Source of the DNA: Desulfovibrionaceae bacterium
GTDB lineage: Bacteria > Desulfobacterota > Desulfovibrionia > Desulfovibrionales > Desulfovibrionaceae
Assembly: GCA_022510785.1 (NCBI GenBank)
Contig: JAFLSV010000011.1
Location: 1 to 64,000 of the forward strand
Length of the DNA stretch: 64,000 bases
Direction of reading: 5' to 3'
Notes under the pieces: generated by a model
Told to the model about the DNA's origin: nothing
Database searches by the model: none
The model's input: only the letters and a program-made list of their open reading frames with translations
Shown: one piece after another, positions 2,447 to 17,240 of the stretch
How the letters are laid out: every line of letters begins with the position of its first letter
Numbering within the stretch: the first letter of the stretch is position 1
Position numbers and translations under genes: made by a program

Positions 2447-2518
2447 TGCTTTTTGTGTTTGTGCGCCCGGCCTTCAGGGCAGGCCGGGGCTGTTTGTGCG
2501 CTTCCCTGTGAGGAGACG

Positions 2519-3520
2519 ATGCTCGGCGCCTATACCATCTGGCATTTTCTGGCTTTCATGGTTCTTGTCGCGATATGCCTGTGGGTGGATTTGCACGCCC
2601 ACAAGGCCGATGAGCCCATTTCCATGCGCGGCGCCCTGGCCTGGTCCCTTTTCTGGATTGCCCTGGCCTGCGGCTTTGGGGTCTATGTGGGCGTCAGCCA
2701 CGGCATAAGCCACGCCGCGCTCTATTTTTCCGGATATCTGCTGGAAAAATCGCTGTCTGTGGACAATTTGTTCGTGATTATGGCGATTTTCAGTTCCTTT
2801 TCCATCCGGGAGGAGTATCAGCACCGGGTGCTGTACTACGGCATTCTCGGCGCGCTGCTTCTGCGCATGGCCTTTGTGGCGGCCGGCAATTCCCTGGTGG
2901 AGTTCTTCGGCCCCTGGGCGCTGGCCGCCTTTGGCCTGTTCGTGCTGTGGTCGGCCTGGAAGATGTGGCAGCACATGCGCTCGCCCCACGAAGAGGTGCA
3001 GGATTACTCCACCCACTGGTCGGTGCGCCTGACGCAGCGCTTTTTGCCGGTGGCGCACCATCTGCGCGGGCACGATTTTTTTGTCAGGGAAGCCGTCCGC
3101 CCGGATGAGCCGGGCGGCGGGCTGGTGTGGAAGGCCACACCCCTCTTCCTGTGCCTGGTGGTGGTGGAGTTGTCCGACGTCATGTTCGCCTTTGACTCCA
3201 TACCCGCCATCATCGCCATCACTCAGGATCCCTTTCTGGTTTACACCAGCAACATTTTCGCCATCCTCGGCCTGCGTTCCCTGTATTTTCTCATGGCGGC
3301 GGCCAGACGCTACCTGATCCATCTGGAAAAGGCGGTTATCGCCATTCTGGCCTTTATCGGCCTCAAAATGCTGCTCGGCGTGGCCGGGCTTGTCCATCTG
3401 CCGCCCCTGGTCAGCCTGGCCGTGGTGGGCGGCCTGCTGACCATAGGCATTGTGGCGTCGCTGGTATTTCCTGAGGACAAAAATGCTTCCGGATCTGGCG
3501 CGGGCCATTCCCCGTCTTAA
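2519..3520 (+). CDS. TerC/Alx family integral membrane protein
   Basis: A 333-residue polytopic membrane protein of the TerC family (Alx-like), a group linked to metal-ion, mainly manganese, homeostasis and to tellurite resistance operons. The ATG at 2519 follows AGGAG at 2511. Family hallmarks are visible: the LLEKSLSVDNLFV segment after the third membrane helix and the VELSDVMFAFDSIPAI motif in the second half, both with conserved acidic residues inside membrane segments. About eight or nine hydrophobic helices alternate with a basic loop (residues about 150-190). The tail after FPEDKNASG is short and polar. A stand-alone Mn exporter-like role is the most likely function, inferred from the family. 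No yybP-ykoY (Mn) riboswitch is obvious upstream. Confidence 0.9.
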   Translation: MLGAYTIWHFLAFMVLVAICLWVDLHAHKADEPISMRGALAWSLFWIALACGFGVYVGVSHGISHAALYFSGYLLEKSLSVDNLFVIMAIFSSFSIREEYQHRVLYYGILGALLLRMAFVAAGNSLVEFFGPWALAAFGLFVLWSAWKMWQHMRSPHEEVQDYSTHWSVRLTQRFLPVAHHLRGHDFFVREAVRPDEPGGGLVWKATPLFLCLVVVELSDVMFAFDSIPAIIAITQDPFLVYTSNIFAILGLRSLYFLMAAARRYLIHLEKAVIAILAFIGLKMLLGVAGLVHLPPLVSLAVVGGLLTIGIVASLVFPEDKNASGSGAGHSPS

Positions 3521-3603: not shown

Positions 3604-4371
3604 ATGAGCACCATCATGAGCAATTTTTTCGAGACACTGACCCGCAATCCCGACACGTTGAAAACCATGGCCGGAGAGGTTCTGGGTGAGCTGGGCGGCG
3701 TGGGCCGTTCGGTCATGGACTCTCTGGCCAGGAACAACCGGGCCGACATGCTGGGCGCCGGGGCCGTGGGCGGCCTTCTGGGCGCCCTGCTTGGCAGGGG
3801 CGGCCGCGATCTGGCCGGCACCGCGCTGACCCTGGGCGGCACGGCCGTGGCCGGCACTCTGGCCTGGAATTTTTATAAAAAATGGGCGGCCCGGAACGCC
3901 GCGCCCGGCGCGCCCGCGCCGGCCGGATGGAATGCTGGAAGCGTGTCCCCGTCCAAATCCGCGCCCGCGCCGGGCGCCGATTCGTCCGGCCAGGGGGCGG
4001 GAGAGGACAGCGCCGCGCTGCTGCTGGAAGCCATGGTCTTCGCCGCCCGCGCCGACGGGCATATTGATGAGACGGAGCGCGCCCGCATTGATCAGGCCGT
4101 GCGGCAGATGTTTCCGGATCAGGATCTGGCAGCCCTGCTGGATCCTCTCATGACGCGGCCCATCGACCCCCGCGCCCTGGCCGGCCGGGTGCGTTCCCCC
4201 GAACAGGCCCGCGACCTGTACCGCTTGTCCTGCGCCATTGTTGACACAAATCAGTTCATGGCGCGCAGCTACCTGAACGGCCTGGCCGATGCTTTGGGAT
4301 TGGGAAGCGAAGAGCGCGCCCGCATGGAGGCCGAAGCGGCGGCGGCCGGAAACGGCGCGCGCACAGTCTGA
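3604..4371 (+). CDS. DUF533 / YebE-like inner membrane protein with TerB-like domain
   Basis: A 255-residue protein of the DUF533 (YebE) family. Residues about 50-90 are a glycine/alanine-rich hydrophobic stretch (GAGAVGGLLGALLGRGG and GTALTLGGTAVAGTLAW) that fits one or two membrane passes. A Pro/Ala-rich linker (about 95-135) leads to an all-helical C-terminal domain beginning AALLLEAMVFAARADGHID, the TerB-like signature with conserved acidic residues (DGHIDETE). The function is unknown in the family; E. coli YebE belongs to envelope stress and zinc regulons. The neighbour upstream is a TerC protein, and TerB-like plus TerC-like proteins often occur together in metal-stress loci, though they are 83 bases apart here. 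Start ATG at 3604; a second in-frame ATG lies five codons in. Confidence 0.8.
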   Translation: MSTIMSNFFETLTRNPDTLKTMAGEVLGELGGVGRSVMDSLARNNRADMLGAGAVGGLLGALLGRGGRDLAGTALTLGGTAVAGTLAWNFYKKWAARNAAPGAPAPAGWNAGSVSPSKSAPAPGADSSGQGAGEDSAALLLEAMVFAARADGHIDETERARIDQAVRQMFPDQDLAALLDPLMTRPIDPRALAGRVRSPEQARDLYRLSCAIVDTNQFMARSYLNGLADALGLGSEERARMEAEAAAAGNGARTV

Positions 4372-4569: not shown

Positions 4570-7500
4570 TTACCCCCACAGTATCATGTTGTGGCGCAGG
4601 GGATTGGTCAGGCCTTCGGTCCAGGGCAGAACCCGCACGCCATAGGCATAGTGGCCGTTGCGCGTGGCGGTATAGCTTCCTGTCCAGGTGCGGATCTGGG
4701 ACGTGGCGGCCGTGTTTTCCGGCTTCAGCTCCACCACGGTGGGGTGCTCCGAAAAGTCGGTGCCGTCGGTGGGGCCAATGACGAGCTGAACGCACAGTTC
4801 GTCCGGAAGGAGATCGCCGCTGTCGAGCCGCACGGACACGCGCAGCTCCTTGCCGCAGATGAGCACATCCCCCGCCAGGCCGTCCATGTGGATTTCTTCC
4901 AGGCGCACGGCCCGGAAGCGGCCGTCCACGCTGGTGCGCCAGGCGCCCAGGCGGCGGGCCAGAGCCTGGCCGTCTGCGGCCAGTTCCGCGCCGCGTCTGG
5001 CGGTGGGCAGGTAAATGTCCTTCACATATTCGCGCACCATGCGGCCGCTGCCGTACATGGCGGTCAGCGTGCGCAGCGAGTTCTTGGCCGTGGCGATCCA
5101 GCGCTTGGGCAGGCCGTGCGAATCCCGGTCGAAGTAGCGGGGAATTACCTGATCTTCCAGCAGCGAGTACAGGCTTTCGGCGTCGGAGTAGTCGCTCTGC
5201 TCGTCCTTCAGCTCGTCGTTGAGCGTGACGGGGCCTATGGTCCAGCCATTGCTGCCGTCGGCGCCTTCAACCCACCAGCCGTCGGATATGCTGAGGTTGA
5301 TGCCGCCGTTGACCGGTACCTTCTGGCCGCTGGTGCCGCTGGCTTCGTAGGGGCGGCGCGGGGTATTGAGCCACACGTCGCAGCCCTGGACCAGCAGCCG
5401 GGAAATGGCCAGGCTGTAGTTTTCCACAAAGAAAATGCGGCCAAAGAAGCGTGGATCCAGGCTGTGGTGCACCACCTCCTGAATGAGGTCGATGCCTTTT
5501 TCATCGGCCGGATGGGCCTTGCCGGCAAAGACCAGAACCACGGGCTGTCCCGCCTGATCGAGCAGACGGGCCAGACGGTCGGGGTCAGCGAACAGCATGG
5601 TGGCGCGCTTGTAGGGCGCGAAGCGCCGGGCGAAGCCGATGACCAGCGTGTCGGGCGTGAGCCTGTCCATCCAGTGCTTGGCCTGATCGCGGTTGACATT
5701 CGTGGCCACGGCGCTGTTCTGCGTCCACACGCGCAGCTGATCGAGCAGAGCCTGTTTCTGCGTGCGGCGGGCCTGCCAGAACTCGTCATCCGGGATATCG
5801 TTGACCTTGTTCCAGGCGGGCGCGTCAGGCGGCAGTTCCAGCCAGTCCGGGCCCACCGCCTTGTCGAGCAGGGCGCGGAAGGCCGGCCCCGCGACGGAGG
5901 CCGTGTGCACCCCGTTGGTCACATAGCCGATGGGCACTTCGGCCAGAGCGACGCCGCGCCACAGGCCGCGCCACATCCTCCGCGAGACAAAGCCGTGCAG
6001 GCGGCTCACCGCATTGGCCTTGAACGACAGGCGCAGCGCCAGGGCGGTCATGTCGAAATGGCGGGCGTCGCCGCTTTCGTGCTGGCCCAGGCGCAGGAAG
6101 TCCTGCCACTCCAGGCCCACCGACTGCGCGTAGGAACGGAAATAGCGTTCCATGAGCTCCACGCTGAAGCGCTCGTTGCCCGCGTCCACCGGCGTGTGGG
6201 TGGTGAAGGCGCACATGCCCCTGGTCAGCATCATGGCTTCGTCCAGGGACAGATTTTCATCGCGCATGTGGTGACGGATGAGCTCCAGGACAAGGAAGGC
6301 CGAATGCCCTTCGTTCATGTGATAGACGGCCGGGTTCAGGCCCAGGGTGCGCAGCAGGCGCACCCCGCCCACGCCCAGGAGGATTTCCTGACGCAGGCGC
6401 AGGTCGCGATCCGCTTCGTACAGGCGGGCGGTGATGCGACGGTCGTCTTCGGTGTTCTGGGGAATGTTGCAGTCCAGAAGATACAGCGAGATGCGGCCCA
6501 CCCGGCAGCGCCAGACCTGGGCATAGAGGGTGCGGCCCGACAGCTCGAGCGAAATTTCCAGGGTGCCCCGGCCGCCGGGAACCGGCTCGATGGGCAGGGT
6601 GGAAAAATCGTTTTCAGGGTACAGGGCCACCTGGCGGCCGTTCTTGTCCAGGGCCTGCTGGAAGTAGCCGTTGCGGTACAGAAGGCCCACGGCCACCAGC
6701 GGCACATTTTCGTCGCTGGCGGATTTGAGATGGTCGCCGGACAGCACGCCCAGGCCGCCGGAATAGAGCGGCAGGCTTTCATGCAGGCCGTATTCCGTGG
6801 AAAAATAGGCCACGGGGTGCTGGGCGTCCAGGCCTCCCCGGGGGGAAGCCTCATCCGGTATGTCCGGCCCGGGCGCGGCCATATAGGCGTCGAAATCGGC
6901 CATCACCCGCGTGTAGCGCTCCAGATAGGCCTTGTCGCGCGCGAGGGCGGTCAGGATTTCGGCATTGGCTTCCTCGATCATGCGCACCGGATTGTGATTG
7001 CAGGCGTCCCATGCCTCGGGGTTGAGGTCGCGGAACAGGCTGACGGCTTCGGGATGCCAGCACCACCACAGGTTGTAGGCAAGTTCGCGCAGGCGGTTCA
7101 GGGCGGACGGCAGTTCGGCCACGGCCATCAGCGTGCGCAGGAAGGGCGTGGTGGAGGATTTGACCCGCAGGGCGCGGTTCAGCGCTTCGCGCCGCCTGGC
7201 CCCGATGAGATAACTGCCCCGCTGTGAGGCTTTTTCCAGAGCCTTGGAATAGGCCTCGGTATACAGCGGGAAGAAATCCGCCCACGAGGCATGCCCCGCC
7301 AGAGCCCGCACGGCCCGGCGCTGGGCGTCCAGTTCGGCGGTGGGCTGGGTGGCGCAGGTCAGAAGGGCCTGGCGCAGGGAGTCCACCACCTCGCCGTACC
7401 CCGCCATGCGGCGCGATACCACGGTGACGCCGTCGGTGTCGCCCTGCTGGGACTCCTGCTCGCGCGCCCAGATGCCGAAGCCGGACAGATCCGTGGTGAC

Positions 7501-8862
7501 GGTGGGCACGCCGTAGGCCGCGCTTTCATGCGGGGTGTAACCCCAGGGTTCGTACCACGAGGGAAACACGCCCAGATCGCAGCCGGCCAGGATGTCAAAG
7601 TAGGGCATGTTGAAAAAGCCGTCGTTTCCGTCGAGCAGGGCGGGCACAAACACCACCTGAACGTGGTTTTCCTCGCGGTTGTGCAGGCCCAGCCGACGGC
7701 AGGCGTTCAGGATGGGATCGTTGGCCGCGTCGTAGACGTGGTGGCTGGTAATGAAGCCCGCGCCCGGCATGGAGGGATCGCTGACCACATTGGGATCGCC
7801 GCTGACAGCGGCCTGGTTGACGCCGCTGTGCCCGCCCATGACCAGCAGGAGGGCCAGGATATGGGTTTCGGAATTCTGGAGGGCCTGCTGCGCGCCGGCC
7901 AGGGCTTCGAGGAAGGCGTCCACGCCCTTGTTGTGATATTCGTAGCGGCCTGAAATAGCCATGATGCGCGTATTGGGATGCAGCGTGCGGCGCAGCAGGC
8001 GGCTCACCGCTTCCAGCACGCGCTCGCGATGGCTCTGGGCCGTGGCGCGGTCTGCGCTGTAGTCGGGGATGGTGCGCAGGTCAAGGCCGTTGGTGGTGAC
8101 CACATCGGGCACCCGCCCCAGAAACGCCGTGGCTTCGTCAGCGGTGATGCGGCTGACCGTGGTGAACACGTCGGCCTCGCGGGCGCTGATGCTTTCCATC
8201 GAATACTTGGGCGTGATGTTATAGGCCGCGGCTTCCCGCGTCGGGGAAATGGCGCCCATTTTCGCGTAGATATCCACCCCGGCTCCGGCCATGGCCCGGC
8301 CCAGCATGGTGGCGTGGGTGGTGAACACCGTGCCCACTTCCGGGCACAGATGCTTGACCGCCAGAAGGCCCGCCCCGCACATCCATTCATGGAACTGGGC
8401 CACGGCGCGATGGCGTTCGGGCAGGGCCAGCACCTGGCAGGCCGTGGCAATGACCTCGCCGCAGGCGTGGCTGAACAGCACGGGCTCAATATAATCCCAG
8501 CCGCCGGACAGCGAATCCACCCCGTAGCGTTCCCACAACTGGTGCAGAAGCTGGTTGGAATTGTAGGTGTTGGTAAAGTCCACCAGAATGACGCGCGGGC
8601 GGCCGGGGATGTCCCAGCGGCCGAAGCGGCACTTCAGGTTCTTGTCCTGGAGAGGGTGACGCAGGGCGTCCCAGCAGGGTTCGTCGGTTTCCACAAAACC
8701 GGCGTTGCGCCGCAGGTCGGGCCCCAGCAGAAAGTAGTCGTCGCCGTAAAGCTCCACAGCCTGCAGCGCCTTGCTGGCCACCACTTCGAAAATGCCGCCC
8801 ACCTTGTTGCACACTTCCCAGCTGACTTCAAACAGAAAGGTGCGTTTGCCGTCTTCCATCAT
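4570..8862 (-). CDS. Fusion of GT3 glycogen synthase and GT35 alpha-glucan phosphorylase
   Basis: A 1430-residue fusion. Residues about 1-560 match eukaryote-type glycogen synthase (GT3): FEVSWEVCNKVGGIFEVV near the start, AQFHEWMCGAG, FTTHATMLGRAM, and the FPSWYEPWGYTPHESAAYG signature with its conserved glutamate. Residues about 590-1430 are an alpha-glucan phosphorylase of the short, more archaeal type: DUF3417-like LRELAYNLWWCWHPEA, then AYFSTEYGLHESLPLYSGGLG, HMNEGHSAF, FARRFAPYKR and EASGTSGQKVPVNGG, which carries the PLP lysine. One chain would therefore join UDP-glucose-dependent chain extension with phosphorolysis to glucose 1-phosphate. Start: an ATG pair at 8862/8859 after AAGGAG. 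Last gene of the minus-strand glycogen operon. No frameshift or internal stop, so the fusion looks real. Related fusions probably occur in other Desulfovibrio genomes; that is from memory. Confidence 0.92.
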   Translation of the reverse strand: MMEDGKRTFLFEVSWEVCNKVGGIFEVVASKALQAVELYGDDYFLLGPDLRRNAGFVETDEPCWDALRHPLQDKNLKCRFGRWDIPGRPRVILVDFTNTYNSNQLLHQLWERYGVDSLSGGWDYIEPVLFSHACGEVIATACQVLALPERHRAVAQFHEWMCGAGLLAVKHLCPEVGTVFTTHATMLGRAMAGAGVDIYAKMGAISPTREAAAYNITPKYSMESISAREADVFTTVSRITADEATAFLGRVPDVVTTNGLDLRTIPDYSADRATAQSHRERVLEAVSRLLRRTLHPNTRIMAISGRYEYHNKGVDAFLEALAGAQQALQNSETHILALLLVMGGHSGVNQAAVSGDPNVVSDPSMPGAGFITSHHVYDAANDPILNACRRLGLHNREENHVQVVFVPALLDGNDGFFNMPYFDILAGCDLGVFPSWYEPWGYTPHESAAYGVPTVTTDLSGFGIWAREQESQQGDTDGVTVVSRRMAGYGEVVDSLRQALLTCATQPTAELDAQRRAVRALAGHASWADFFPLYTEAYSKALEKASQRGSYLIGARRREALNRALRVKSSTTPFLRTLMAVAELPSALNRLRELAYNLWWCWHPEAVSLFRDLNPEAWDACNHNPVRMIEEANAEILTALARDKAYLERYTRVMADFDAYMAAPGPDIPDEASPRGGLDAQHPVAYFSTEYGLHESLPLYSGGLGVLSGDHLKSASDENVPLVAVGLLYRNGYFQQALDKNGRQVALYPENDFSTLPIEPVPGGRGTLEISLELSGRTLYAQVWRCRVGRISLYLLDCNIPQNTEDDRRITARLYEADRDLRLRQEILLGVGGVRLLRTLGLNPAVYHMNEGHSAFLVLELIRHHMRDENLSLDEAMMLTRGMCAFTTHTPVDAGNERFSVELMERYFRSYAQSVGLEWQDFLRLGQHESGDARHFDMTALALRLSFKANAVSRLHGFVSRRMWRGLWRGVALAEVPIGYVTNGVHTASVAGPAFRALLDKAVGPDWLELPPDAPAWNKVNDIPDDEFWQARRTQKQALLDQLRVWTQNSAVATNVNRDQAKHWMDRLTPDTLVIGFARRFAPYKRATMLFADPDRLARLLDQAGQPVVLVFAGKAHPADEKGIDLIQEVVHHSLDPRFFGRIFFVENYSLAISRLLVQGCDVWLNTPRRPYEASGTSGQKVPVNGGINLSISDGWWVEGADGSNGWTIGPVTLNDELKDEQSDYSDAESLYSLLEDQVIPRYFDRDSHGLPKRWIATAKNSLRTLTAMYGSGRMVREYVKDIYLPTARRGAELAADGQALARRLGAWRTSVDGRFRAVRLEEIHMDGLAGDVLICGKELRVSVRLDSGDLLPDELCVQLVIGPTDGTDFSEHPTVVELKPENTAATSQIRTWTGSYTATRNGHYAYGVRVLPWTEGLTNPLRHNMILWG

Positions 8863-8945: not shown

Positions 8946-10187
8946 CTAGGCGGTCGAGTCCGACCTGGTCGTGTTCTTGTCCATCACTTCGGGCCGGGCG
9001 TCAAGCCGTGTCTGAAGCCTCAGCCGGAAGTCGGCCAGGATGTTCATGAAGTTGATATAGGCATCGTACGGTGTGCCGTAGGGGTTGAAATACTTGTGCA
9101 CGTCGCCGTCCGAGAACCACTTGGTGCACATGTAGTAGAAGTGATCCGAGGTCTGGAGCCGCTGCCAGGCCCGTGTGAGGTCGGGATCGCCAAGATCCCT
9201 CACCTTGCCCTCGCACTGGTACAGCGCGCTGATGGCGTCCTGCTGCATGTCGTTGCCCTGCCAGGCCGTGAGGTCGCGTTCGGCGTCGGCCCAGGACATG
9301 AACTGCGGCACATCCAGCCGGGCGCGCGGAGCCAGCGAGGCCGCCGCTTCGGACGGCGTCTGAAAGCGGAAGTCCGGGTTGCGCATGATGGCGTCGGGCA
9401 GGGCGCGCATGAAGTTGAAAATGCCGGAGTCTTCCCACTGATGTTCACCGAAGGTTTCGTAATCCATGAACAGATTGATGAGATCCGCCTGGCCGTTGAG
9501 GGCATGAACCCAGACGGCGAACTTGTCGGCTGTCAGCGGGTATTCGGCCCACTCGCGGTTGGAAAAGCGGAAGGCGATATCATCGGACAGGGTGTAGTTT
9601 TTCAGAAGGAGCTTCAGCCTGGTGCAGCCCGCGGGCTGGTACAGGTAATTGGGGCTGCGCCAGCCCAGCACATGATCCGCGCCTTCGGCCAGAACCGCGT
9701 CGTAGCCCAAATCTTCCACCTCGCGGGCCAGATCGTTGTTGTAAATAAGCTCGGTATTGCGGAACACGCGCGGCGTGACGCCGAACAGTTTCTGCATCCG
9801 CTCGCGGTGACGGGACACCTGGGCGCGGAATTCCCGCCGGGAGAACAGGAAGGACAGGCTGTGGCAGTCGGTTTCATCCAGAAATTCCACATGCCCGGTC
9901 TTCGCCAGGGCCTGAAAGCTCTCCAGCACTTCCGGCGCGTATTCCTCGAACTGATCAAGCACCGTGCCGGTCAGGGAAAAGCTGACCTTGAAGCGGCCGT
10001 CATAGCGGCGGATGAGCTCCAAAAGCACGTCGTTCATGGGCAGGTAGCACTTGCGGGCCACCTTGAGCAGAATGTCGCAATTGGCGTCTTCGTCCTCATA
10101 AAAGGGGTTCGCGCCAATATCAAAAAAGGTATAATGCCGCAACCGGTAGGGCTGATGAACCTGAAAATAAAAGCATAATGCGGGCAT
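8946..10187 (-). CDS. GH57 family glycoside hydrolase (alpha-amylase-like or branching enzyme)
   Basis: A 413-residue GH57 enzyme acting on alpha-1,4-glucan. Motif 1 is CFYFQVHQPYR (His11). Motif 3 is VFRNTELIYNN, with the likely nucleophile Glu146. Motif 4 is LFMDYETFGEHQW, with the likely acid/base Asp242. Length fits the short GH57 alpha-amylase class; GH57 branching enzymes are usually above 500 residues, so amylase or 4-alpha-glucanotransferase is favoured, though substrate cannot be settled by reading. The ATG at 10187 has GGAG nine bases upstream, inside the end of the preceding gene (stop at 10193), which suggests translational coupling. A TTG at 10205 is possible but less likely. Cytoplasmic, no signal peptide. 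Confidence 0.9.
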   Translation of the reverse strand: MPALCFYFQVHQPYRLRHYTFFDIGANPFYEDEDANCDILLKVARKCYLPMNDVLLELIRRYDGRFKVSFSLTGTVLDQFEEYAPEVLESFQALAKTGHVEFLDETDCHSLSFLFSRREFRAQVSRHRERMQKLFGVTPRVFRNTELIYNNDLAREVEDLGYDAVLAEGADHVLGWRSPNYLYQPAGCTRLKLLLKNYTLSDDIAFRFSNREWAEYPLTADKFAVWVHALNGQADLINLFMDYETFGEHQWEDSGIFNFMRALPDAIMRNPDFRFQTPSEAAASLAPRARLDVPQFMSWADAERDLTAWQGNDMQQDAISALYQCEGKVRDLGDPDLTRAWQRLQTSDHFYYMCTKWFSDGDVHKYFNPYGTPYDAYINFMNILADFRLRLQTRLDARPEVMDKNTTRSDSTA

Positions 10188-10192
10188 AGCGG

Positions 10193-11530
10193 TTATCTCC
10201 GGCAAACGGTGTGGTACGCGTTAAGCACGCCCTGAGCGGCCTTGTCCCAGGTGATGGCTTTGAGTTCCTCGTGACAGTTTTTGACCATTTCGGCGGACAG
10301 GCGGGGGTAGGAAAGCACCGCGCAGATTTTGTTGGCCATTTCCCGAACATCCCAGAAGTCCACTTTGAGGGCGTTGCGCAGAATTTCGGCCACCCCGGAC
10401 TGGCGGGACAGGAGCACGGGCACGTCGTACAGCACGGCTTCCAGCGGGGCGATGCCAAAGGGCTCGGACACGCTGGGCATGACGTACAAATCGCTGATGG
10501 CGTACATGTGATCCACCTCGGCCCCGCGCATAAAGCCGGTAAAGTGAAAGCGGTTGCCCATGCGCAGCTGGCTCACCCGGCGCACCATGCGGGGCAGCAT
10601 GTCGCCGTTGCCCGCCATGATGAAGCGCACATTGGGCATGGTGTCCAGCACCAGGCGGGCGGCTTCCACAAAATAGTCCGGCCCTTTCTGAAAGGTCACC
10701 CGGCCCAGGAACAGCACCCGCTTTTCGTGCCGGCACATCGCGGGTACGGTGTAGCGGTGGCCCGCGTCGCGGCGCGACACGGCGTTGTGAACCACCACCA
10801 CCCTTTCCGGCGGCACGCCGTAGCGGCGGATGGCCACGTTGCGGGTGAGGTGGCTGACCGCGATGACCAAGTCTGCGGCGTGCAGGCCGGCTCTTTCCAC
10901 GGCGGCCACGGCGGGGTTGACGTTTTCGCCGCTGCGGTCGTATTCCGTGGCGTGCAGGTGCACGACCAGCGGCTTGCCGGTGACGGCCTTGGCCAGCATC
11001 CCGGCCGGATAGGTCATCCAGTCGTGGGCGTGGATGACGTCAAAGCCCTTCTGGCTGAACTCGGTCAGGGCCAGGGCCGCCGCCGCCTTGCTGTAGCGGT
11101 ACACTTCGGTCATCAGATCCGGCCCGTAGTCGCCTTGCAGTTCCACCATGTCGGAATGAACCTCGTAGCGTTCCTCGTACCCGGTGCGCCGGTTCATGCC
11201 CTGCAGCAGGCGGTAGCGTTCGGCGTAGCTTTCTTCGGTGTCGTAGGCCAGAAGCAGCGAATCCACATAATGCACGGCGATGCGTTTCTGCCACAGCTCC
11301 AGGCTGGCGCGCGACAGGGTGCGGGCCGTTTCGCTGGTGACCTGCGTGCCCGACGCGGACAGGAGGCGCAGGTGCGAGTCCATGCCGCCGCTGTCGCCCC
11401 TCAGCCTTGGCAGAACAAAGTGCACATCCACGCCGTGCCGGGCCAGGCCGCGCGTCATGCCGTAGCAGGCCGTGCCCAGTCCTCCGCTGATATGGGGCGG
11501 AAATTCCCAGCCGAGCATCAGCACGCGCAT
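10193..11530 (-). CDS. GT4-type glycosyltransferase, probable glycogen/maltosaccharide synthase
   Basis: A 445-residue GT-B fold glycosyltransferase. The N-terminus MRVLMLGWEFPPHISGGLG resembles the donor-binding start of starch synthase-like and GT4 enzymes (GGLG loop). HAHDWMTYPAG, VVHLHATEYDRSG and, in the C-terminal half, LGRVTFQKGPDYFVEAA and the EX7E motif in SEPFGIAPLEAVL are all present. The ATG at 11530 overlaps the end of the debranching enzyme gene by 13 bases, so the two are translationally coupled; longer upstream reading has no start support. Sitting between a debranching enzyme and a GH57 protein, it probably extends or modifies alpha-glucan with a nucleotide-glucose donor. The donor (ADP- or UDP-glucose) is not decidable here. 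Confidence 0.85.
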   Translation of the reverse strand: MRVLMLGWEFPPHISGGLGTACYGMTRGLARHGVDVHFVLPRLRGDSGGMDSHLRLLSASGTQVTSETARTLSRASLELWQKRIAVHYVDSLLLAYDTEESYAERYRLLQGMNRRTGYEERYEVHSDMVELQGDYGPDLMTEVYRYSKAAAALALTEFSQKGFDVIHAHDWMTYPAGMLAKAVTGKPLVVHLHATEYDRSGENVNPAVAAVERAGLHAADLVIAVSHLTRNVAIRRYGVPPERVVVVHNAVSRRDAGHRYTVPAMCRHEKRVLFLGRVTFQKGPDYFVEAARLVLDTMPNVRFIMAGNGDMLPRMVRRVSQLRMGNRFHFTGFMRGAEVDHMYAISDLYVMPSVSEPFGIAPLEAVLYDVPVLLSRQSGVAEILRNALKVDFWDVREMANKICAVLSYPRLSAEMVKNCHEELKAITWDKAAQGVLNAYHTVCRR

Positions 11531-13644
11531 GGCGCCGCCTCCTGTGCTTCGGCCTTCACGCCCAGGCTCGCCAGGCGGGGGAGCAGGCGCTCGTTTTCCC
11601 AGCGGGCATAGACGGCGGGCGCGGCCTTCTGCAGGAGCCGCAGCAGGCGGTAGCATTCGGCCACGCTCCAGGCCTGGGCGATGCAGCCGCCCGGCGTATG
11701 CGGCGGGTTGCCGTCGAAAATTTCACTGATGCTGCCCAGCCCCGCGTCCACCAGATGATCCGTGAACAGGGGCGTCAGGGTGTTCAGCAGGGCCTCCGTC
11801 GCTCCGTCCACATCCCAGGCTGTTTTCAGCAGGGCTTCGCCGTAGGCCCCCAGCAGCCAGGGCCAGACCGTGCCCTGGTGGTAGGCGGCGTCGCGCTGGG
11901 TCTGGGTGCCCTGGCAAATTTCCCGGTAGGCCCGATCGTGCGGGGACAGCGTGCGCAGCCCATAGGGGGTGAGCAGGTTGTTGCGCACGCATTCCACCAC
12001 GGCGGCCCAGTCGTCCGGATCCAGGGGGCAATAGGGCAGGGACACGGCGAAAATTTGGTTGGGCCTGATGGCGCTGTCCTGAACGCCGTCGCGCCACACG
12101 TCGGCCAGATAGCCGTCGCCGCGCGGCACCCAGAAGCGTTTGCGGAAGGCGGCGCGCAGGCGGCGCAGCAGGGTGGAGCAGCGGCGTCTGCGCTCGCCGT
12201 ACAGCTGCGCCAGATGGTCGGAAAAGGCGAGCGCGTTGTACCACAGCGCGTTCAGTTCCACCGCGCAGCCGTAGCGCGGAGTTACCGGCCGGCCGGCCGC
12301 GAAGGCGTCCATCCAGGTGAACTGGGTGTTTTCGTCACCGCTGTGCAGCATGCCCTCATCGTCCACGCGGGCCAGAACGGCGCCCTCGTCCGAGGTGACG
12401 CCGCCGCGGTAGGCGTCGATGATTTTTTTGATGGCGGGCCAGCAGCGATCATGCACAAAGTCCGCGCTGTCCGGCGCCCAGTCCAGCATTTGCTGCACGG
12501 CCCAGACATACCACAGCGAGGCGTCCACCGAATTGTAGGCCCCCGGCCGGTCGCCCGCGCCGAACATGTTGGGAATGAGCCCGTTCCGCATGGCGCCTGT
12601 GGCGGCGTCCAGCACCGCGCGGCCCCTGGGGACGCGATCCGCGGCAAAGGTCAGGCCGGGCAGGGCGATGAAGGCGTCGCGGCCCCACACGTCGAACCAG
12701 TGATAGCCAGCCACCACCACCGGCGTGCCCTCGCTGCGGACTTCGGCGTCGGGCTGATGGGTCAGGAAGCGCGAGCCCTCGCGCCTGAGCTGGCCGGTCA
12801 GGCTATACGACCTGGCGGCGAGAACCTGCCGGCGCCGGGTTTCCTCCTCCCACAGATCGGCCAGGGAGCCCGGTTCCTCTTCAGTGGAGGCCGAGAGCAG
12901 AATGGACGAGCCCGGCGTCAGCGCGATATCGAACATGCCGGGCATGAACAGATCTTCGCGGAAGTCGTAGCCGCGTTCCTCCTCCTGAAAATAGTCCACG
13001 TTGCGGCACCAGTCCGGCCCGGGCAGAAAGCGGCTGGACGCCCCTTCCGCCTGCATGAACAGCGGGGGCAGCGCGTTGTAGGGCCGGATGGAAAAGCCCG
13101 GCGCGGGGCCGCTGACCGGATAGGTGCTGACCTGAAGATCCATGTTGGCGCAGGTGAGCGCGTGGGCGTTGCGGAAGGCCAGAAGCGGCTTGACGCGCAG
13201 GGTGAGGGCCGGCGGCTCCTCATCCGCTTCCAGATCCAGGCAGTCCACGGTGTAGCGCACCAGCAGCATGGTGCGGTTTCTGAGCAGCACCAGTTCGCGG
13301 GTAAAAGCCAGGGGGCCTATGCGGTAGTGGAACAGGGGCCAGTCCCCGGTTTCCACATATTCCAGGTATTCATGCCCCGGGGGATAGTAGACGCCCGGAT
13401 GTTTCCGGCAGGAAAAGAAAAATTCGCGTCCGCCGCCCAGCACGGATTCTTCCAGCGCGGACAGGAGAACATGGCGCCCCGGCGGACTGGCCAGGTTGGC
13501 CACCAGCAGGCCGTGATACTTGCGGGTGTTGCAGCCTGGAACCGTGCCTGACGCGTAATCGCCCAGACCGTTGGTGAGCAGCCATTCCTTGCGCAGAGCC
13601 CGGCGGATATTCTGGCACGCGGGCTTGTCGAACATAAGCTTCAT
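11518..13644 (-). CDS. Glycogen debranching enzyme (amylo-alpha-1,6-glucosidase type)
   Basis: A 708-residue debranching enzyme of the GDE_C (GH133-like) type, hydrolysing alpha-1,6 branch points in glycogen. The N-terminal domain (WLLTNGLGDYASGTVPGCNT, then RKYHGLLVAN) is the typical bacterial/archaeal GDE start. The catalytic (alpha/alpha)6 barrel shows GYHWFDVWGRDAFIALPGL, NTQFTWMDAF and HQGTVWPWLLGAYGEALLK. The ATG at 13644 follows GGGGAGGAA at a normal distance; an upstream start at 13668 lacks this. First gene of the four-gene minus-strand operon. Its 3' end overlaps the next gene by 13 bases. A divergent glucokinase starts 240 bases away and would phosphorylate the glucose released by this enzyme. 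Confidence 0.93.
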   Translation of the reverse strand: MKLMFDKPACQNIRRALRKEWLLTNGLGDYASGTVPGCNTRKYHGLLVANLASPPGRHVLLSALEESVLGGGREFFFSCRKHPGVYYPPGHEYLEYVETGDWPLFHYRIGPLAFTRELVLLRNRTMLLVRYTVDCLDLEADEEPPALTLRVKPLLAFRNAHALTCANMDLQVSTYPVSGPAPGFSIRPYNALPPLFMQAEGASSRFLPGPDWCRNVDYFQEEERGYDFREDLFMPGMFDIALTPGSSILLSASTEEEPGSLADLWEEETRRRQVLAARSYSLTGQLRREGSRFLTHQPDAEVRSEGTPVVVAGYHWFDVWGRDAFIALPGLTFAADRVPRGRAVLDAATGAMRNGLIPNMFGAGDRPGAYNSVDASLWYVWAVQQMLDWAPDSADFVHDRCWPAIKKIIDAYRGGVTSDEGAVLARVDDEGMLHSGDENTQFTWMDAFAAGRPVTPRYGCAVELNALWYNALAFSDHLAQLYGERRRRCSTLLRRLRAAFRKRFWVPRGDGYLADVWRDGVQDSAIRPNQIFAVSLPYCPLDPDDWAAVVECVRNNLLTPYGLRTLSPHDRAYREICQGTQTQRDAAYHQGTVWPWLLGAYGEALLKTAWDVDGATEALLNTLTPLFTDHLVDAGLGSISEIFDGNPPHTPGGCIAQAWSVAECYRLLRLLQKAAPAVYARWENERLLPRLASLGVKAEAQEAAPCAC

Positions 13645-13884
13645 TGCCGCTTCCTCCCCGACCGTCAACCCGGCATGGATGCCGTGGCGATCCTGAGTAA
13701 GATCTTATACAAAGCATACGGTACTTCTCTTGTAATGTAAACTGCCTTGTGCAAGGCGGAACATAATGCTGTCCGCTTTCACCGCAACGCCTGCGCACAG
13801 CGATGCCATGGACTGGCGGCGGGCGGCGGCCTGTGCTACACAGCACGGAAAGGAATTGTGACCTTGTGGCGCGGGGAGGCTCAG

Positions 13885-14901
13885 ATGCGCATTCTGGCGG
13901 CGGATATCGGCGGCACGCACAGCCGCTTTGGATTGTTCGAGAGCAGCGGCGGACTCCTGCGTTTGCTGTGCATGGGGCAGGTGCCCAGCGCCGGGCCGGA
14001 CTTCACCGCCGTGCTGGACGCCCTGGCCCTGGCCCATCCCGACCTCGCGCCGGGCAGGGCGGATCGGGCCGCCCTGGCCGTGGCCGGCCCGGTGAACGAA
14101 CCCGGGCGCGTGCAGCCCTCCAACCTGCCCTATGTCATCGAGGCGGAGCAGCTCCGCCGCCGGACGGAAAGGCCCGGTCTGCCCGTGCTTCTGATCAACG
14201 ATTTCGAGGCCCAGGCCCTGGCCTGCCTGACGCCGGTCATGGACAAGGCCCTGCCTCTGCCGGCCGGGGCAGGGGCCGCCGGGGAGAAGGCGCGTTTCGC
14301 GTTCCCGGGACAGGGCGAGGGCTCGCCCTGCCTGGTGGTGGGCGCGGGCACCGGCCTGGGCATGGCCCTGCTGGTTCCGGATGCCGCCGCGCCCGGCTTG
14401 TCCCGCCCGGCGCGGGTCTGGCCCTCGGAGGGCGGGCACGCGCTTTTTCCGTTTGTGGAGAATGGGGAGGACGACGAGCCTGCCTTCGGGCGCTTCGTGG
14501 CGGCCCGCCGGCACGTGGCGGCCGCCCGGGGCGACGATATTCTTTCGGGGCCGGGGCTGGCCCTGCTGCACGAATTTTTGACCGGCCAGGCACTGGAACC
14601 CGCCCGGGTGACCGCCTTGCCGGATTTTGAGCATTCCGGCACATGCCGGATTTTCGCCCGCTTCTATGGGCGCCTGTGCCGGAATATGGCGCTCATCACC
14701 CTGGCCCGCTCGGGACTGGTCATCACCGGGGGCCTGGCCTCCCGCTGTCCGGCCCTGATCCGCCACCCCGCCTTCCGGGAGGAATTTCTGGCCGCGCCGG
14801 CCCAGTTTCACGATCTGCTGAGGGCCGTGCCCGTATGGCACAACGCCGATCCCCTTGCCGGGCTGTGGGGGGCCGCCCTGGCCGGAAGCCGCCTGGCGTA
14901 G
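13885..14901 (+). CDS. glk: Glucokinase (Glk family, PF02685 type)
   Basis: A 338-residue ATP-dependent glucokinase forming glucose 6-phosphate. The start MRILAADIGGTHSRFGLFE is the phosphate-1 motif of the Glk family. VLLINDFEAQAL holds the catalytic Asp and neighbours, VGAGTGLGMALL is the second nucleotide motif, and WPSEGGHALFPF matches the conserved SEGGH segment that binds glucose. The ATG at 13885 follows GGGGAGG; longer in-frame reading upstream lacks a ribosome-binding site. It is divergent from the glycogen-degrading operon, and the shared 240-base region probably holds both promoters. The role is to feed free glucose from debranching into glycolysis or storage. No ROK-type zinc motif, so this is not a ROK kinase. 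Confidence 0.93.
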   Translation: MRILAADIGGTHSRFGLFESSGGLLRLLCMGQVPSAGPDFTAVLDALALAHPDLAPGRADRAALAVAGPVNEPGRVQPSNLPYVIEAEQLRRRTERPGLPVLLINDFEAQALACLTPVMDKALPLPAGAGAAGEKARFAFPGQGEGSPCLVVGAGTGLGMALLVPDAAAPGLSRPARVWPSEGGHALFPFVENGEDDEPAFGRFVAARRHVAAARGDDILSGPGLALLHEFLTGQALEPARVTALPDFEHSGTCRIFARFYGRLCRNMALITLARSGLVITGGLASRCPALIRHPAFREEFLAAPAQFHDLLRAVPVWHNADPLAGLWGAALAGSRLA

Positions 14902-14936: not shown

Positions 14937-17240
14937 TCACAGGCGCATGGCCCGCAGGCCGTTGGCCACCACCAGCAGACTGGTGCCCACGTCGGCGAAG
15001 ACGGCCATCCACATGGTGGCCTGGCCCAGCATGGTCAGGAGCAGGAACAGGGCCTTGACCCCCAGGGCCAGACTGATGTTCTGGACAAGGATGGCGTGGG
15101 TGGCGCGCGACAGCCGGATAAAACGCGGAATTTTGCGCAGATCGTCGTCCATGAGGGCCACATCCGCCGTTTCCATGGCCGTGTCCGTGCCCGCGGCGGC
15201 CATGGCGAAGCCGATATCGGCGCGGGCCAGGGCCGGGGCGTCGTTGATGCCGTCGCCCGCCATGCCCACCACGGCGCCGCCCGCCTGCATCCGCTCCACC
15301 TCGGTCAGCTTGTCTTCCGGCAGGAGCCCGCTCCGGTATTCATCCACGCCGGCCTGCCGGGCCATGGCCGCGGCGCTGTGCTCGTTGTCGCCGGTCAGCA
15401 TCAGGGTGCGCACGCCAAGGCTGTGGAGGTCGGCCACGGCTTCCACGGCGCTGTCCCGCAGGGTGTCGGCCACGGCGAACAGAGCCCGGGGGCCCGCGTC
15501 GCCGCTCAGTATCACCACACTTTTGCCCTGTTTTTCCAGATCGTGAACCCGGGCTTTCACCTCGTCCGGCACCGGCCCCGCTTCTTCCGTCAGACGAAGA
15601 TTTCCCAGGCGCCACGGGCGGCCCTCTATGACGCCGCTCACGCCCCGGCCCGGCAAAGCCTGAAAATCGTCCACCTCCGCCAGCCTTGCCGTCAGTTCTG
15701 CGGGCCCGGGCAGGGCGCCGTCAGCGCCGGCGGCCTCCGCCACCGCGCGGGACACCGGGTGATCGGAGCGGGCCGCCAGGCTGGCCGCGAGCCGGAGGGC
15801 CTGATCGCCGGGCAGGCCGCCCAGCGGGACGAAATCCGTCTGGCGGGGCCTGCCGTGGGTCAGGGTGCCGGTCTTGTCCAGGCTTATCCACTGGAGCTTG
15901 CGTCCCTGTTCCAGAAAAGCTCCGCCCTTGATGAGCAGGCCGTGCCGGGTGGCGGCGGCCATGCCGCTGACCAGCGTCACCGGGGTGGAGATGACCAGGG
16001 CGCAGGGGCAGCCGATGACCAGGAGAACCAGGGCGGTATATATCCAGCGCGGCCAGTCCCCGTTCAGGAACAGGGGCGGAATCAGGGCCACGAGAAGGGC
16101 GGCGAGGAAGATGGCCGGGGTATAGACGCGGGCGAAGCTGTCCACAACGCGCTGAATGGGCGCGCGGCTGCCCTGGGCCTCCTCCACGGCGTGGATGATG
16201 CGGGCCAGGGTGCTGTCGCCCGCTTCGGCTGTAACCTCACATTCAAAGGAGCCCGATTCGTTGATGCTTCCCGCAAAGACCGGATCGCCCACGCCCTTGT
16301 CCACGGGCAGGCTTTCGCCGGTGATGGGAGCCTGGTTGACGGCGGAGTGCCCGGCCACAATGACGCCGTCCAGCGCCACACGTTCGCCGGGCCTGACCCT
16401 CACCCGCGCGCCCACGGGCACCCGCCGGGCCTCCATGCTTTCCCATGCGCCGTCGGGCCGCAGCACCGTGGCCGTTTCGGGCGCCAGACTCAAAAGTTCG
16501 CGGATGGCGTTGCGGGCGCGGCCGAAGGATTTGGCCTCGATGGCTTCGGACAGGTTGAACAGCACCATGACCATGGCCGCTTCGGGGTACTGGCCGATGA
16601 GAAGCGCCCCCGTGACCGCCACGGACATCAGGGCGTTGATGTTCAGATTGAGGTTGCGGACGGCCAGCCAGCCCTTGCGGTAGGTGCCCAGGCCGCCGCA
16701 CAGGATGGCGGCCACGGCCAGAATCAGGGGCAGAATCAGGGCCAGCCCCCCCTCCGGCGTCACGCCGCTTTCGCGCAGCCATTCACAGGCCTCGGACGCC
16801 GCGGCCAGAGCGCCGGCCACGGCCAGCCTGCGCCAGGGAATTTCCGGCGAGGCCTGAGCCTGCCGCGCGGCGTCCGCCCCGGCTGGTGCCAGAGATTCGG
16901 GCGTCATGTCGATGGCGCGCAGGGCGGCTTCAATGGGTTCGGTGGACGGCAGGCTGTGGTTCACGATAAGCACGCGCTGCATGAGATTGAATTCCAGGCC
17001 CTGAATGCCGGGCACGGAGGCCAGCTTTGCGCGGATGAGCGCCTCTTCCATGGGGCAGTCCATGTTCATGATGCGGTACATGGCGCGGGTGGCGGAGGCG
17101 GCGCCCAGCGCGGCGGGGGCAAGCGGCGCGGGAGCCGCGCTTTCATTCGGGCAGCGGCATGGCTGTTCGTGGGATTCGGGCTTGGCCGGCGGCTGGCTGT
17201 GGCCGCAGCAGGAGCAGTGCGGGGAAGAGGCGGCGTTCAT
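14937..17240 (-). CDS. P1B-type heavy-metal-transporting ATPase (Zn/Cd/Pb exporter)
   Basis: A 767-residue ZntA/CadA-like exporter in the inner membrane. The N-terminus is rich in Cys and His (PHCSCCGHSQ, then PCRC), followed by a heavy-metal-associated fold with the unusual MNMDCPMEEALIR site. The membrane CPC motif (VIGCPCALVISTPV, near residue 410), DKTGTLTHGRP (phosphorylated Asp near 453) and MAGDGINDAPALARADIGF are intact, and the C-terminal helices carry the Asp of FADVGTSLLVVANGLRA typical of Zn/Cd/Pb pumps. Start ATG at 17240 after GGAG. A divergent MerR regulator of the CadR/PbrR type and a MerR-type operator at 17307-17333 control it. Substrate among Zn, Cd and Pb cannot be fixed by reading. 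Confidence 0.95.
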   Translation of the reverse strand: MNAASSPHCSCCGHSQPPAKPESHEQPCRCPNESAAPAPLAPAALGAASATRAMYRIMNMDCPMEEALIRAKLASVPGIQGLEFNLMQRVLIVNHSLPSTEPIEAALRAIDMTPESLAPAGADAARQAQASPEIPWRRLAVAGALAAASEACEWLRESGVTPEGGLALILPLILAVAAILCGGLGTYRKGWLAVRNLNLNINALMSVAVTGALLIGQYPEAAMVMVLFNLSEAIEAKSFGRARNAIRELLSLAPETATVLRPDGAWESMEARRVPVGARVRVRPGERVALDGVIVAGHSAVNQAPITGESLPVDKGVGDPVFAGSINESGSFECEVTAEAGDSTLARIIHAVEEAQGSRAPIQRVVDSFARVYTPAIFLAALLVALIPPLFLNGDWPRWIYTALVLLVIGCPCALVISTPVTLVSGMAAATRHGLLIKGGAFLEQGRKLQWISLDKTGTLTHGRPRQTDFVPLGGLPGDQALRLAASLAARSDHPVSRAVAEAAGADGALPGPAELTARLAEVDDFQALPGRGVSGVIEGRPWRLGNLRLTEEAGPVPDEVKARVHDLEKQGKSVVILSGDAGPRALFAVADTLRDSAVEAVADLHSLGVRTLMLTGDNEHSAAAMARQAGVDEYRSGLLPEDKLTEVERMQAGGAVVGMAGDGINDAPALARADIGFAMAAAGTDTAMETADVALMDDDLRKIPRFIRLSRATHAILVQNISLALGVKALFLLLTMLGQATMWMAVFADVGTSLLVVANGLRAMRL

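Follow-up and report, generated by a model that had tools for sequence, protein, structure and literature searches.

Glycogen synthase and glycogen phosphorylase are a textbook pair of opposing enzymes, kept apart and oppositely regulated in animals and yeast. Here, we analyzed a gene of a Desulfovibrionaceae bacterium in which a glycogen synthase of family GT3 and an alpha-glucan phosphorylase of family GT35 are encoded as one chain. The gene is located in positions 1 to 64,000 (64,000 nucleotides; from here on, the window) of contig JAFLSV010000011.1 in GenBank assembly GCA_022510785.1. The human GT3 enzyme GYS1 has a tetramerization domain, with Lys429/Arg430 in helix 16, binds glucose 6-phosphate (Glc6P) via residues including Arg579, Arg582, Arg586, Lys301, and His501, and senses phosphate via Arg579, Arg580, Arg588, and Arg591 (PMC9287172). 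A 2024 review of prokaryotic alpha-glucan enzymes covers GT3, and the sections of it available to us do not mention a fusion to GT35 (PMC11046441). The D. gigas genome paper mentions reserves of polyglucose, but the terms glycogen, glucan, and phosphorylase do not occur in it. We found no paper describing a GT3-GT35 fusion in the open-licence literature searched, which makes this absence weak evidence.

Results

A single ORF encodes a synthase half and a phosphorylase half

The fusion is a genuine single open reading frame (ORF). As the original prediction had claimed, GT3 and GT35 are present in one chain, and the ORF spans exactly 4570-8862; we add that it is on the minus strand, which the prediction had not stated. 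For comparison, we assembled a set of 70 fused proteins, i.e., the window protein and 69 further full-length or nearly full-length ones. The gene and its parts are as follows:

4570..8862, minus: fused GT3-GT35 gene, 1,430 aa, ATG to TAA (ORF and Pfam/NCBIfam matches)
7204..8862, minus: GT3 glycogen synthase half, residues 1-553, compact, without the tetramerization insert (Pfam, AlphaFold, PDB matches, and comparison with stand-alone GT3)
7525..7551, minus: GT3 E-x7-E pair, E438 and E446 in YEPWGYTPHE (in 70 of 70 fused proteins; aligned to the human and yeast enzymes)
7114..7203, minus: linker of poorly conserved sequence (about residues 554-583), following a long helix predicted at 527-566
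6772..7113, minus: DUF3417, residues 584-697, N-terminal part of the TIGR02094-type phosphorylase (Pfam)
5005..6813, minus: GT35 phosphorylase core, TIGR02094, residues 684-1286 (NCBIfam)
5320..5322, minus: Lys1181, equivalent of the pyridoxal-phosphate (PLP) lysine (invariant in 70 of 70)
4573..4980, minus: C-terminal beta-rich extension, about residues 1295-1430

Pfam matches Glycogen_syn at residues 12-340 and in a second stretch, DUF3417 at 584-697, and Phosphorylase at 845-1199; the GT35 half as a whole comprises residues 584-1430. The motifs quoted in the original prediction, including WEVCNKVGGI, were found in the protein. The ATG is located 83 bases past the end of the preceding GH57 gene, and the AAGGAG between them, a few bases 5' of the ATG, is a good ribosome-binding site for the 1,430-aa ORF. 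Neither G+C nor third-position G+C changes across the GT3/GT35 junction. Based on a family search of the genome, the fused gene is single copy, and there is no other GT3 or TIGR02094-type GT35.

The GT3 half scores 341 bits against Pfam Glycogen_syn (cut-off 27), and its AlphaFold model (575 aa) has a pLDDT of 90.5 and a pTM of 0.88. Among PDB structures, the human and yeast UDP-glucose synthases are the best matches (Z 34-39, 32-34% identity), while the ADP-glucose enzyme GlgA is clearly more distant (Z about 24). The predicted assignment to eukaryote-type GT3 is borne out. The GT35 half matches NCBIfam TIGR02094 ("alpha-glucan family phosphorylase") at 684-1286 with 769 bits (cut-off 192). 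Its model has a pLDDT of 83.4 and is closest to glycogen phosphorylase of Segatella copri (Z 46-50); the relative placement of domains in this model is not trustworthy because the overall rmsd is large.

The importance of individual active-site residues in GT3 and GT35 is well established. In alignments, H183, R189, R306, K312, E438, and E446 of the GT3 half, the counterparts of the His, Arg, Arg-x5-Lys, and E-x7-E of the human and yeast enzymes, are identical in all 70 fused proteins. The same holds for H853, R1080, K1085, and K1181 of the GT35 half, the first three of which align with GT35 His377, Arg569, and Lys574 of solved phosphorylases. A missing catalytic residue in one half would have undermined the original prediction; among the residues checked, none was missing from either half. 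Based on these comparisons, the GT3 half is predicted to extend alpha-1,4-glucan from UDP-glucose, and the GT35 half to split off glucose units with phosphate, yielding glucose 1-phosphate.

UDP-glucose was also the predicted donor, and the genome agrees with it. GalU is present above its cut-off, while none of the five NTP_transferase proteins (RmlA, GalU, GlmU, and two unclassified) reaches a GlgC cut-off; because GalU is present and no GlgC is recognized, UDP-glucose is the likely donor. The genome has no GT5 GlgA, the GT5 model matching only the GT4 protein encoded near the fusion.

The fused GT3 is a compact subclass

We compared GT3 sequences from the 70 fused proteins, 6 split pairs (adjacent genes), and 23 stand-alone bacterial proteins. 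The tetramerization insert, human residues about 371-442, is missing from all 70 fused and all 6 split copies: the flanking anchors are separated by 21-29 residues in fused, 26-34 in split, and 72-77 in stand-alone GT3. The arginine cluster is altered as well. The Arg580 position is Arg in 23/23 stand-alone proteins and mostly Glu or Asp in the fused ones; the Arg582 position is Arg in 22/23 and mostly Leu, respectively; and the His501 position is His in 23/23 and Asp in 67/70, respectively. Arg586 is retained by most GT3 of both kinds and is the only residue of the switch largely retained across the fused family, while Arg588 and Arg591 are unconserved in both sets. Aligned to the human and yeast enzymes, the window protein has T, A, L, R, A, and A at positions 579, 580, 582, 586, 588, and 591. 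Thus, of the features of regulated eukaryote-type GT3, it has neither the tetramerization domain nor an intact arginine switch.

These alignments show that the fused and split GT3 belong to a compact subclass without most of the Glc6P/phosphate-sensing arginine cluster. Given the loss of the tetramerization domain and of most of the switch, it is unlikely that Glc6P or phosphorylation, which the original prediction had raised, controls the enzyme in the eukaryotic manner.

The compact GT3 is linked to GT35 across phyla

GT3 had been predicted to be rare in bacteria, and we found it to be uncommon, scoring above the family cut-off in 10/247 Desulfobacterota, 32/199 Planctomycetota, and 10/247 Bacteroidota genomes. 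The fusion itself is not an isolated oddity; the taxonomic survey shows a conserved architecture across several phyla. A class-wide search recovered full-length fused copies from many Desulfovibrionaceae, at 53-63% identity, and, at 42-46%, from a further group of genomes (genus code g8). In other Desulfovibrionaceae, the TIGR02094-type phosphorylase is present only in stand-alone form. A species-level collection extends the fusion to Syntrophaceae, Planctomycetota, Bdellovibrionota, Myxococcota, and some Bacteroidales. The architecture must, we presume, be visible in domain databases.

All 10 GT3-positive Desulfobacterota genomes sampled have GT3 within an ORF of 1,418-1,481 aa. In Planctomycetota, GT3 falls cleanly into two kinds. 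Eleven are stand-alone ORFs (607-686 aa) whose match covers the full Pfam profile. The other 21 are compact: the middle of the profile is unmatched, leaving two matching pieces. Of these 21, 20 are part of ORFs of 1,251 aa or more, and one has internal stops. All three compact GT3 in the Bacteroidota sample are separate ORFs directly adjoining a GT35 gene. Thus, in the genomes sampled, compact GT3 is almost always physically linked to GT35, whether fused or adjacent. Separately, we note a second, unfused GT3-GT35 pairing in four Planctomycetota loci (L234, L235, L236, L237), in which a full-length, non-compact GT3 is directly followed by a GT35 gene.

In the GT35 tree, a supported branch (SH-aLRT 95) separates all fused and split copies from 55 stand-alone phosphorylases. 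The GT3 tree separates one clade of fused and split copies from stand-alone GT3 (four tested) and yeast Gsy2 (100/100); within this clade, the split copies nest with the fused ones of Bacteroidales (100/99). Across the 70 proteins, the pairwise identities of the GT3 halves and those of the GT35 halves are correlated (0.979, compared with 0.18 for the best of 1,000 shuffles). Because both halves form single, congruent clades, the data fit one old joining that would have been followed by shared descent. Transfers between phyla are probable, with the deepest branches not firmly resolved. The split in Proteiniphilum-like Bacteroidales is most simply explained as a probable later fission, since these copies nest with fused ones.

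The fusion is usually the last gene of a conserved operon

The neighboring genes are as follows:

8946..10205, minus: GH57 alpha-glucan enzyme, conserved operon neighbor
10193..11530, minus: GT4 glycosyltransferase (GlgM/GlgA-like), conserved operon neighbor; the longest ORF starts at 11656, the true start probably being near 11530
11518..13668, minus: GH133 amylo-alpha-1,6-glucosidase (debranching enzyme, GDE), first gene of the conserved operon
13747..14901, plus: glucokinase, divergent; adjoins the operon in the window as well as in two Mailhella loci

The fusion is usually the last gene of a GH133-GT4-GH57-fusion operon. Among 27 loci with enough upstream sequence (25 fused, 2 split), 19 have GDE, GT4, and GH57 upstream on the same strand, 4 (Planctomycetota) are without a recognized GT4, and 4 have none of the three (two split Bacteroidales, one fused Bacteroidales, and one Desulfovibrio). 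The best NCBIfam matches of the GT4 protein are glgA_Coryne and GlgA, both below cut-off; speculatively, it may be a primer maker or a second synthase. GT3 of heterotrophic eukaryotes are described as requiring a primer made by glycogenin (PMC11046441). The GH57 protein is the sole GH57 in the genome and has no PDB sequence relative at E 1e-4; it may be an unrecognized branching enzyme or, alternatively, an amylase. A CBM48-bearing branching enzyme was not found in the genome, GH13 itself not having been searched.

At the edges of this region, a P-type (E1-E2) ATPase gene, metal-type by its look, adjoins the glucokinase gene (14937-17240, minus). Immediately past the 3' end of the fusion gene are plus-strand genes for a TerC-family membrane protein (2453-3520) and a DUF533 protein (3604-4371).

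Discussion

Each half of the protein belongs to a known family; what is surprising is that opposite reactions are joined, that the joining is widely conserved, and that a compact GT3 subclass without the switch is tied to it. We consider it probable that the gene encodes a bifunctional UDP-glucose glycogen synthase/phosphorylase in one chain, in which the phosphorylase perhaps replaces the lost assembly module. A single chain would fix synthase and phosphorylase at 1:1 and hold both on the same glucan; the net direction would therefore follow UDP-glucose versus phosphate and glucose 1-phosphate. GT35 phosphorylases are a family of oligomeric enzymes. Speculatively, the GT35 half could have taken over from the lost parts of the ancestral synthase in providing assembly and perhaps control. 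The protein would work in one operon with the debranching enzyme, the GH57 enzyme, and a GT4 that possibly makes primers. The fullest version, in which a phosphorylase oligomer assembles and gates the synthase to give a reversible, self-contained glycogen machine directed by metabolite ratios, is possible but doubtful.

The predicted role in controlling futile cycling is reasonable in general form, but for two of the regulators named in the prediction, Glc6P and phosphorylation, the binding parts are missing from the protein; the further suggestion that the chain senses glucan length found no specific support.

Several points weigh against the reading favored here. The basis is sequence comparison and models of the halves built apart, in which the interface between them is not visible. 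Proteiniphilum-like genomes manage without a covalent link, and therefore the fusion is not strictly needed. Finally, the poorly conserved linker does not suggest a precise signal path running through it.

The scaffold and control part is all that is disputed by the best-surviving alternative, stoichiometric coupling only, by which the fusion merely co-expresses and co-localizes two active, independent enzymes and the loss of the tetramerization domain is unrelated drift. We regard this as a serious contender, falling somewhat short of an even chance. The variable linker, the split adjacent pairs in Bacteroidota, and the four Planctomycetota loci in which non-compact GT3 also adjoins GT35 agree with it; against it stands the almost perfect coincidence of the compact form with GT35 linkage over many lineages, including the split ones.

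It is improbable that the GT3 half has lost its synthase function and now serves the phosphorylase as a module that binds glucan or senses UDP-glucose. Loss of the tetramerization and allosteric parts could be read that way, but all checked catalytic residues are invariant; moreover, searches of the genome turned up neither GlgA nor another GT3, and therefore, without the GT3 half and barring the GT4 protein, the operon would have no synthase. We hold it to be just as improbable that the chain is normally cut into two enzymes after translation or that an internal start additionally yields GT35 by itself. A Met (residue 579) does stand at the start of the phosphorylase half; however, it lacks both conservation among the fused relatives shown and a good ribosome-binding site before it, so that we judged initiation there unlikely. 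In addition, the ORF remains uninterrupted even between very distant relatives (35-60% identity). An assembly or frameshift artefact is ruled out by fused ORFs in many independent genomes, some of them single-contig (G002, G110, G114, G151). Nothing in this gene speaks for one; among relatives from fragmented assemblies, some genes are interrupted by a contig end or a frame break (G213, G490).

In the fusion, opposing enzymes have been tied together across phyla while the synthase lost the parts used for opposite regulation. It lends itself to a clean test of two questions: how futile cycling is prevented when neither Glc6P nor phosphorylation exerts control, and whether fusing can replace an oligomerization domain. 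Under a database label such as "alpha-glucan family phosphorylase", the synthase would go unnoticed, and pathway surveys seeking only GlgA/GlgC would therefore call these bacteria unable to make glycogen.

Comparison with known systems

The GT3 half resembles GYS1 and Gsy2 (GT3, UDP-glucose) in its GT-B fold, E-x7-E, and phosphate-binding residues, with 32-34% identity over about 540 residues; it differs from them in being fused to GT35 and in being without the tetramerization domain, the full arginine cluster, the Glc6P site, and the phosphorylated tails. The stand-alone bacterial GT3 of Bacteroidota and Planctomycetota (L137-L140, L227-L237, L246-L252) share family and catalytic motifs with it. 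However, they form a separate deep clade (four tested, 100/100), retain the 72-77-residue insert and most Glc6P-site residues, and, unlike the fused GT3, are usually unlinked to GT35. The Segatella copri glycogen phosphorylase (9l6i, 20yr) has TIGR02094, the PLP lysine, and the phosphate site in common with the GT35 half, at 35-36% identity over nearly the whole length, but is a stand-alone enzyme, and the fused GT35 halves make their own clade.

Two further comparisons come from the 2024 review (PMC11046441). In the archaeon Picrophilus torridus, GT4, GH133, and GH57 genes are clustered; this cluster shares three enzyme families with the operon described here, and no GT3-GT35 fusion is described for it there. 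TreS-Mak (TreS-Pep2) of the GlgE glycogen pathway is likewise a bifunctional fusion in bacterial alpha-glucan metabolism, but it joins consecutive steps of one pathway, whereas the GT3-GT35 fusion joins opposite directions.

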